Part shown: positions 36-3,363 of the stretch, piece by piece
Position numbering within the stretch: position 1 is the stretch's first letter
How the letters are laid out: every line of letters begins with the position of its first letter
Assembly: GCA_024860865.1 (NCBI GenBank)
Contig: JACRDV010000145.1
Coordinates: 1-5,014, forward strand
DNA: 5,014 nucleotides
Source of the DNA: JACRDV01 sp024860865 [NCBI: Methanobacteriota archaeon]
Lineage (GTDB): Archaea; JACRDV01
Reading direction: 5' to 3'
The notes under the pieces: model-generated
What the model was told of the DNA's origin: nothing
Databases searched by the model: none
Seen by the model: only the letters and a program-made list of their open reading frames with translations
Position numbers and translations under genes: made by a program

Positions 36-347
36 ACTAAGGCCCCTAGTGACCTCCTCCCAACGCTAAAAGCATTGGGCATCCACCACTTCAAGGACTC
101 GCTCCGTCACCGGAGGCGCAGGTCCGCTCTTGCTTACGGATGCTTTCGAGGTCGCTGCCTTTACTCGGCTATCAACTGCCCTCTTTTCTCCACAGGAGCC
201 CAAAGGGCTAAAGCCTTACCCTGCCCTAACTCGCTTTGCACTTTCACTGCGGGAGGAGCGGCAGCTTAGGGGCTGGGTCACAAATGACTTGTAGGCTCAA
301 GTCCAGCCCTGCCTTGCAGCATATAGCCGCAGGCCTGGCGGCAAAGC
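36..347 (-). ncRNA. Putative structured non-coding RNA, family not recognised
   Basis: A GC-rich island of roughly 58% G+C (hand count over 41-345) in AT-rich surroundings, with no credible protein. Read on the minus strand from about 347 leftwards it folds into many helices: a hairpin 326-331/315-320; an apical hairpin 298-303/286-291 inside a stem 303-309/270-276 (the two share base 303); a hairpin 205-209/197-201 inside 219-224/192-196 (about 5 bp); and a nested module at 51-153. Strand choice rests on two observations. The hairpin at 95-125 closes with GUGA, a GNRA tetraloop, only on the minus strand. Helices 315-331 and 59-79 contain G.U wobbles on the minus strand that become C.A mismatches on the plus strand. 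A five-pair 332-336/40-44 helix could close the ends. I looked for RNase P RNA (GGAAA and ACAGAA conserved blocks) and SRP RNA helix 8 (GGAAG...AGCAG) and found neither. Both ends are inferred, and the 3' end may run past the left edge. That it is a structured RNA is fairly likely; its function is unknown. Confidence 0.68.
51..153 (-). repeat. Nested helix module within the putative RNA
   Basis: On the minus strand GACCUC (153-148) can pair with GAGGUC (56-51). Inside it GCAUCC (143-138) can pair with GGAUGC (84-79). Within that sits the GUGA-capped hairpin 125-95, whose upper stem CUCCG/CGGAG is perfect and whose base GGAC/GUCC is perfect with a small internal loop. A second hairpin, 78-71 with 67-60 and a UUU loop, follows directly after the inner helix and could stack on it. 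Four mutually compatible helices in about 100 nt, nested without conflict, are hard to explain as coding sequence. This is the best-supported part of the RNA model. Confidence 0.6.
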
Positions 348-1455: not shown

Positions 1456-3363
1456 ATGGGAGCAGAAGAAGTACTAAATGAAATCAAGCAGGCAATTAAA
1501 CAACATTTGCCTAGTAATGTCTCTATTGTTAATATTGATTTCGAAGGTCCGGAAATAGTAGTCTATACCGACAATCCAAGTATATTTGCAGAAGATGGCG
1601 AGCTAATTCGCGAGTTAGCAAAAGTTATCAGACGCAGGATAGTTGTTCGTCCAGACCCTTCAGTCCTTGCAGATCCAGAGGATGCAGAGAGAAGAATACG
1701 GGAAATTGCGCCAGAAGATGCTAACATTACCAGTATTTCATTTGATCCAGAAACTGGTGAAGTGATAATTGAAGCAAAAAAACCAGGTCTAGTGATCGGC
1801 AAATATGGAAAAACTCTCAAAGAAATAACTAAAACAATCGGTTGGAGACCAAAAGTCACAAGAGCCCCCCCGATTCCCTCAAAGATAGTTAATAGCACGC
1901 GCCACATTTTAACTCGTGAGCGCGAAGAGCGGAAAAAAAATTTGCAGAGAATAGGGCGTAGGATTTATCGAACGCCTTCTGGTCGCGGTGATTGGATTAG
2001 AGTTACCTCTCTAGGCGGTTTTAGGGAGGTTGGTAGAACAGCAGTATTAGTACAAACTCCTTCAAGTAAGGTGTTGATTGACTGCGGTATTAACGTAGCC
2101 TCAGAAGAGAATGCATATCCTTACCTTAATGTTTCTGAGTTCAGAATTGAAGAGCTAGAAGCCGTAATTGTTACTCATTCACATTTAGATCACTGCGGTC
2201 TGGTTCCTTATCTTTTTAAATATGGTTATGACGGCCCAGTCTATTGCACTTCACCAACCAGAGATTTGATGTCACTATTACAGCTAGATTACATCGAAGT
2301 AACCCATCGCGAAGGCAAGGAAACACCCTATACCTCTAAGGATATTAAAGAAATGATTAAGCATACGATCCCGCTGGAGTATGGTGAAGTAACTGATATA
2401 GCTCCTGGGATTAGGTTAACTCTTCACAATGCAGGTCATATTCTCGGGAGTGCGATCGTTCACCTTCACATTGGAGATGGACTTTACAATTTCGCATACA
2501 CTGGAGACGTAAAATTCGAACCGACAAGACTTTTTGAGCCAGCTGTTTTTAGGTTTCCAAGGCTTGAGACTCTGATTATAGAAAGCACTTATGGTGGACT
2601 TGAGGACATACAGCCCTCAAGACAAGATGCTGAAAGAGAACTTATTAAGACAATTCGAGAGACCATTGCACGAGGCGGCAAAGTATTAATTCCAGTTTTT
2701 GCTGTTGGAAGAGCTCAAGAACTTATGATACTCCTTGAGGAAAGCATTAGACTTGGTATATTCGAAAAGGTTCCTGTTTATATGGATGGTATGATTTGGG
2801 AGGCAGCAGCGATTCATACGGCTTACCCAGAATATCTTTGTAAAGATTTGCGCGACCAAATTTTCCATAAGGGGTTTAATCCATTTGTGTCAGATATGTT
2901 TATTCAAGTTGGAAGTTCAGAGGAGCGGACAAAAATAATTGAAGGTGAGCCATCCGTTATTGTCGCTACCTCTGGTATGATGACTGGGGGACCTGTTCTA
3001 GAATATTTCAAAAAGTTGGCAGAAGATCCAAAGAATATCCTACTTTTCGTTGGATATCAAGCCGAAGGGTCACTTGGTCGAAGAATCCAAAAAGGGTGGA
3101 AAGAAATTCCAATGAGCGGAGCTAATGGAAAAACTGAAGTCATAAAAAATAATATGGAAGTTAAAACAATCCGGGGCTTTTCCGGCCATTCGGATCGGAA
3201 CCAACTAATAGAATATATCCGTAGGCTCTCTCCTAAACCTGAAAGGTTGATAATTTGTCACGGCGAAAATCAAAAGTGTGTAGAATTTGCTAGCGCAATC
3301 CATAAGCTTTTTAAACTAGAAACTAAAGCTCCACTAAATCTAGAAACTATTAGAATTAAATAG
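1456..3363 (+). CDS. aCPSF1: aCPSF1 (FttA): KH-domain metallo-beta-lactamase/beta-CASP ribonuclease and transcription terminator
   Basis: This is the archaeal homologue of eukaryotic CPSF73. The family cleaves RNA at U-rich 3' ends and terminates transcription genome-wide, acting on the nascent transcript. The 635 residues match the usual length. An N-terminal pair of KH-like domains spans about 1-143; the second has the GxxG loop (GKYG, 115-118) and the first lacks it. The metallo-beta-lactamase core follows from about 180: HSHLDH at 241-246, the motif 3 His328 in NAGHILG, and Asp351 in YTGD. Beta-CASP motifs are Glu376 (IESTYGG), His578 (GFSGHSD) and His602 (ICHGE), so both zinc sites look complete and the enzyme active. 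GRAQE at 418-422 is also typical. The start ATG has only a weak ribosome-binding site, but the N-terminus matches the family. psmB lies 56 bp upstream, as in MJ1237/MJ1236 of Methanocaldococcus. The 3' end converges on zpr1 across 50 bp. Confidence 0.97.

Follow-up and report, generated by a model that had tools for sequence, protein, structure and literature searches.

A dispersed IS200/IS605-type element carrying a long structured RNA in an archaeal genome

The window analyzed here, a 5,014-nt stretch of an archaeal genome, contains next to psmB a GC-rich patch that very probably represents a genuine structured RNA. A preliminary description of this DNA had taken the patch for an RNA gene next to psmB; it lies instead within one of many copies of an IS200/IS605-type element dispersed in the genome, and its RNA is related to the ωRNA/reRNA of TnpB rather than being a divergent RNase P or SRP RNA or a new host RNA family. 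The 5′ hairpins of the RNA have homologues in the TnpB 3′ end/ωRNA region, and the right end of the element is related by its hairpins to that of the TnpB element but is of a different type. We propose, at somewhat better than even confidence, that the element is a PATE-like IS200/IS605 derivative whose long guide-type RNA is used in trans by TnpB, thereby retaining the element. As a mobile element without a nuclease gene, it probably relies on related elements elsewhere in the genome.

Anatomy, composition and dispersal of the element

The element of about 440 bp runs from window position 486 to 49 on the minus strand, with the following parts and flanks:

487–491, minus: TTTAC outside the left end, target site/TAM-like (boundary placed by eye)
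386–486, minus: left end (LE), which also precedes the tnpB gene of contig C48 and, in part, the Y1 tnpA gene of contig C7
364–379, minus: TATA-like box TTTTAATATTTTTAAG in front of the RNA
49–345, minus: structured ωRNA/reRNA-type RNA of about 297 nt (5′ end approximate)
311–335, minus: hairpin A with a UAUAU loop; its C48 counterpart lies within the 3′ end of tnpB
270–309, minus: hairpin B (GGGCUGG/CCAGCCC); its C48 counterpart likewise lies within the 3′ end of tnpB
184–201, minus: GGGCTCCTGTGGAGAAAA motif, kept in a second phylum
79–143, minus: covarying stem GCAUCC/GGAUGC around the GNRA hairpin (95–125)
60–78, minus: hairpin D, covarying and subterminal to the right end
49–54, minus: right end GGTCAC, the element terminus
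29–48, minus: putative guide, 20 nt of flank outside the element, predicted from the reRNA anatomy given in PMC8612924

The copy in the window has both ends, the RNA and the TATA-like box. At its right end a palindrome and a fixed terminus are present in the form of hairpin D and TCAC, and the edge of hairpin D at position 60 lies 11 nt from the terminus at 49, in agreement with the distance of about 10 nt before the guide described for ωRNAs in PMC10278001. The promoter suspected upstream of the RNA in the preliminary description corresponds to the promoter-like sequence at 364–379; a TATA-like 6-mer precedes the RNA in 12 of 15 elements (shuffles: mean 1.7, maximum 5 of 15). The list of 6-mers was drawn up with the sequences in view, and these 15 elements do not count as independent cases.

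The sharply bordered GC-rich island reported earlier is borne out by composition: G+C is 0.580 across 36–347 (312 nt), the richest other stretch of that length within the window has 0.449, and none of 8209 segments of 312 nt taken at a step of 20 from other stretches of the same genome attains 0.580 (mean 0.361, s.d. 0.044). The conserved unit stops at 49 and not at 36, positions 36–48 being flanking DNA outside it. Stops occur in all six frames over 49–345; a 64-aa plus-strand ORF at 75–269 falls within the RNA body, and no minus-strand ORF of at least 60 aa precedes psmB. The minus strand folds at −126.8 kcal/mol (z −2.66, better than 196 of 200 shuffles) and the plus strand at −113.6 kcal/mol (z −2.68, better than 198 of 200). 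Since both strands fold better than shuffles, the two cannot be told apart by folding energy, and the originally stated preference for the minus strand stands on the homologues, the orientation of TnpB and the TATA-like box. The GNRA tetraloop noticed at the outset is GUGA in the hairpin at 95–125, and by eye the same hairpin occurs with a GUGA, GCAA or GCGA loop in seven other copies (C64, C47a, C32, C135, G154, G297 and G298).

Searches of both strands of the island against Rfam yielded nothing convincing, the top listed match having an E-value of 0.1 and scoring far below its cut-off, and the sotRNA families RF02656 and RF02657 were not listed by cmscan for the window (E≤10) or for eight homologue loci (E≤1). 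The island matches neither the RNase P nor the SRP RNA model, in line with the preliminary description, which had not found the hallmark blocks of either on either strand. That the island is nevertheless a divergent RNase P RNA, or some different host RNA next to psmB, has in its favour that no archaeal RNase P RNA (RF00373) was detected at E≤10 in an assembly estimated to be 92% complete, a result attributable to a missing contig or a divergent RNA. The likeness to RNase P and SRP RNAs comprises size and GC contrast only. We regard this reading as extremely improbable: the island belongs to a dispersed, decaying multicopy family with mobile-element ends and matches no Rfam family. Its identification as RNase P or SRP RNA was rejected for want of a model match, the only archaeal SRP RNA (RF01857) match of the assembly being at C152 (E=1.1e-38), and the dispersed copies rule out a single-copy host RNA. 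The gene adjoining psmB, at window 1456–3363, codes for an FttA-type transcription termination factor (PF17214, Beta-Casp), beyond which lie ZPR1-like, SepF and LSm genes.

Using the minus strand of window 500–40 as query, we recovered 22 matches in the same genome at E≤0.001, that is, the element itself and 21 other places; across 60 other genomes of the same domain, all from other phyla, there was no match to this segment better than E=0.004. The copies are broken at varied points, and many are truncated or decayed. The LE leads directly into the RNA in the window, C108 and C109, and in C87a it extends to the start of the RNA before breaking off. The TCAC terminus is present in 10 of the 12 copies reaching the 3′ end (window, C15, C86, C47a, C109, C37, C48, C29, C130 and C104) and altered in C64 and C32; C135 and C149 stop short of it. 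With left boundaries placed by eye near the equivalent of window 486, and C130 excluded for its cut left end, TTTAT stands at the boundary in 8 of 12 left ends of this genome (C108, C48, C159, C149, C37, C7, C15 and C104), TTTAC in the window, and neither motif in C109, C87a and C5. Among the rearranged forms, C109 is a chimera of the 5′ half of the long RNA with a C48-type right end, C104 retains both RNA modules in a shorter form, and C15 and C149 consist of an LE fused to short right-end pieces. C48 and C29 share their 3′ flank and may be one locus. Contigs C106, C108, C29, C87 and C18 end in or near these repeats, and as a consequence full autonomous copies may be absent from the assembly. 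Scans with the exact RNA-core pattern in viral contigs and with a left-end motif gave no matches, and blastn of the island against plasmids gave short matches only, of up to 32 nt.

Relationship to TnpB and TnpA elements

The LE is 87% identical over 112 nt to contig C48 and 85% identical over 60 nt to contig C7. In C48 it is followed by a gene for a 366-aa TnpB (NF040570, 176 bits against a cut-off of 100; PF07282), related to solved TnpB/Cas12f chains, and in C7 by one for a 170-aa Y1 TnpA (PF01797, 111 bits). An IS110-like transposase ORF, so named from its sequence (L066:780–1790), overlaps the end of the TnpA gene and so hides where the TnpA element terminates on its right side.

The right end of C48 includes the tnpB 3′ end together with a shorter reRNA region and terminates in GGTAGTTCAC. 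When C48 and the window were each folded alone, both displayed hairpins A, B and the subterminal D, and the loop of hairpin A was UAUAU in either case. The covariance model R1, which covers hairpins A and B and was constructed from five island-family copies of this genome with C48 left out, matched tnpB at its 3′ end in C48 (E=4.7e-6), in C29 (E=7e-7) and in G297, a genome of a second phylum (E=3e-5), with weak matches to two tnpB 3′ ends of G298 (E=0.17 and 0.25). A plain sequence comparison of the island with C48 indicated similarity of the 5′ parts (1 of 500 shuffles as good), but no significant similarity between the 3′ module and the C48 right end, for which 18 of 500 shuffles did equally well. 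A second model, R2, built on the 3′ module of five copies of this genome, had no match in the tnpB right ends of C48, C29, G297 and G298. Three further TnpB stretches of the same genome (C130, C114 and C147) had no R1 match at E≤10 and no R2 match, and TnpB relatives in other archaea (L091–L097) matched neither model at E≤1; over additional TnpB loci R2 gave two weak matches (L132, E=0.0023; L135, E=0.054). No TnpB was confirmed in viral contigs, and plasmid TnpBs were relatives of less than 60% identity only.

The anatomy of the RNA recalls the TnpB ωRNA/reRNA of ISDra2 and archaeal IS605 elements in three respects: a pair of 5′ stem-loops that correspond to the 3′ end of tnpB, a subterminal 3′ hairpin, and a terminus followed by flank at the guide position. 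In the literature, the ISDra2 reRNA of about 150 nt matches the tnpB 3′ end and the right end, with about 16 nt of flank as guide (PMC8612924); processed ωRNAs, sharing a subterminal 3′ hairpin, span 79–466 nt, a range that includes the length of the present RNA, and ‘derived’ TnpBs with the RuvC-III motif NADXN have two 5′ stem-loops and one at the 3′ side (PMC10278001, which also mentions rearranged TnpB clades); archaeal ωRNAs and Rfam families thereof are described in PMC12558985. Unlike these RNAs, the one in the window has no tnpB in cis and no Rfam family match, and it exceeds the corresponding right-end region of this genome's TnpB element by more than 100 nt. In the TnpB systems that the cited papers describe, the guide RNA comes from the nuclease's own element; with no tnpB in cis, the RNA is not classed here as a classical in-cis ωRNA. 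We found no report of a promoter-bearing long RNA in TnpB-less elements in the open-access literature; a search of PMC12558985 gave no passage on TnpB-less elements, and searches of PMC10432273 and PMC11870625 gave nothing relevant.

The RuvC-III motif of the partner TnpBs reads NADRN in G298, NADLN in C29 and SADLN in C48. The RuvC-II segments, AIVLGKLKK in the C48 TnpB (L063:219–1319) and AIIAIGNPKG in the G298 TnpB (L123), lack the usual glutamate. A glutamate is present further along, in ENHTS and NEAYTS respectively. Judging from these sequences, the active site of the C48 and G298 TnpBs may be rearranged.

Homologues in a second archaeal phylum

A search with R2 over 297 genomes detected G154 (E=8.6e-8), the next match outside the source genome having E=0.0067. 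In 28 genomes of the phylum of G154, it recovered G298 (E=2.7e-12), G297 (E=5.7e-12), G154 and, weakly, G246 (E=0.0064). R1 matches lie directly upstream of R2 in G297, G298 and G154, implying that the RNA is conserved at either end and in the same order. The GGGCTCCTGTGGAGAAAA motif is identical in G154 and G297 except for its last base, with more changes in G298, and in G297 and G154 an LE-like motif, GGTGACCTCTC, is followed by the RNA within about 60 nt. The RNA modules have a G+C of 0.63–0.68 in the second phylum versus 0.57–0.60 in the window.

The covariation that the preliminary description had looked to in homologues is evident in both modules: 12 of 24 pairs of the 3′ module are changed on both sides (10 sequences, 92.6% of cells paired), as are 9 of 16 pairs of the A+B module (10 sequences including C48, 94.4% of cells paired). 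None of 500 shuffles scored as high, and slid structures gave at most 4 pairs for the 3′ module and at most 3 for A+B. The structures had been fixed from the copies of the source genome before the second-phylum sequences were found, and the alignments are still biased to the structure. By helix, 8 of 9 pairs of hairpin A and 7 of 7 of the GNRA hairpin covary. RNAalifold on seven copies of the source genome alone detected little covariation (4 of 35 pairs). Along with the folding results, these observations uphold the structured RNA claimed at the outset.

They also bear on whether the element might be a passive PATE, in which the hairpins are DNA ends for TnpA together with remnants of a deleted tnpB, and the RNA has no function. 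The element is like PATEs in having no transposase gene, IS605-type ends and a subterminal palindrome. There are precedents: the Halanaerobium PATE, in which 28 nt of LE are joined to the final 58 nt of tnpB and to the RE (PMC7290912), shares with it the tnpB 3′-end remnant, and the PATEs of Haloquadratum, some of them apparently derived by core deletion (PMC3119063), share its many copies. The decay of many copies in the source genome and the reduction of C15 and C149 to an LE with short right-end pieces would fit such a passive origin, and covariation in the subterminal hairpin could arise at the level of single-stranded DNA. Yet helices away from the terminus, namely hairpin A and the GNRA hairpin, covary as well, and unlike PATEs the window element has a structured RNA of about 300 nt with a TATA-like box ahead of it, the long RNA being kept in two archaeal phyla. 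On balance we consider a passive PATE unlikely, albeit deserving serious attention, and prefer the interpretation of a guide-type RNA used in trans.

All five readable tnpB right ends (C48, C29, two of G298 and one of G297) terminate in TAGTTCAC after a shorter reRNA region, the G154 tnpB being truncated by a contig end. The RNA-carrying elements terminate in GGAGGTCAC (window and G297), GGGGTCAC (G154), GGAGGCCAC (G298) or GGAAGTCAC (C104). In both phyla the RNA-only and TnpB types of element occur side by side, a pattern compatible with an old split, but with right ends so distinct this TnpB may not accept the long RNA. With two TnpBs and TnpA as tblastn queries (E≤1e-3), no TnpB was found inside 17 RNA loci of other genomes, four of which (L120, L121, L163 and L166) sit at contig ends; outside the RNA, the same search picked up a TnpB fragment at a distance of 1.6 kb in L168 and a weak TnpA match at 1.8 kb in L117. 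Among the 28 genomes, R2 matches below 1e-6 occur in the same three that have a TnpB whose identity to that of C48, taken over the N-terminal part or the entire protein, is at least 50% (G298, 55%; G297, 56%; G154, 56%). All three belong to one family and two of them to one genus, so they do not represent independent cases. G078 has a TnpB 42% identical to that of C48, along with C-terminal pieces 57% identical over about 60 aa. In G246 no C48-type TnpB was found at E≤1e-10 despite its related RNA elements, which speaks against a strict pairing of the RNA with that TnpB.

A structured RNA with some other role, as a decoy or titrator of TnpB or TnpA, a regulator, or a guide for another nuclease, would accommodate both the difference in right ends between RNA-only and TnpB elements in the two phyla and the elements of G246. 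Nevertheless, the 5′ and subterminal hairpins fit the anatomy of ωRNAs and the guide position is kept, and we deem such a role distinctly unlikely.

A proposed trans-acting guide RNA and a possible RNA-only lineage

In terms of mechanism, we propose that TnpA supplied in trans acts on the ends, whereby the element would move. Transcription would start from the TATA-like box of the LE and run past the right end into the flank, the first 16–20 nt or so of which (window 48–29) are the predicted guide, by analogy with known reRNAs. TnpB from other elements may then bind the long RNA in trans and cut the empty donor site beside the TTTAT/TTTAC motif, following which repair would restore the element. 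Under this proposal the element would keep the guide RNA gene and borrow the nuclease.

The family may extend further. A model of the ten sequences in the 3′ alignment (R3) was run over 393 genomes, of which 26 had matches at E≤0.01, including G246 (7 matches) and G078 (5); G154, G297, G298 and one G246 locus match by construction, and many of the others are weak. The 14 R3 loci that were read are tied to the family through the 3′ module only, and the 5′ part of L122, a locus covered by L159 among these 14, had no R1 match at E≤1. The copies read in G246, G078, G297 and G298 are compact, roughly up to 350 nt, and have a hairpin-like stretch at the left end; some contain a TATA-like box, and most terminate in a right end of the GGAGGTCAC type. 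In these four genomes L155–L162 and L164–L166 constitute a further class of short TnpB-less elements, with several copies per genome, most of which start with a TTTAACT(C/T)TGTC-like sequence and end in a GGAGGTCAC-like one. A bacterial record matching the RNA-core pattern and a viral contig matching a second core motif, neither with an R3 match at E≤1, were taken as chance.

More tentatively, and at somewhat less than even confidence, we posit an old RNA-only lineage of IS200/IS605 elements with its own promoter and a long guide-type RNA whose right end differs from that of TnpB elements, living beside the latter in at least two phyla and relying on borrowed TnpA to move and on borrowed TnpB to be retained. 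If this is true, the lineage would parasitize nuclease-bearing transposons by means of a guide RNA acting in trans. A conserved element with nothing but an RNA and a promoter-like sequence would make the RNA alone the selfish unit, and such elements could account for some of the GC-rich islands of AT-rich archaeal genomes. It also becomes testable whether a single TnpB acts in trans for many RNA loci.
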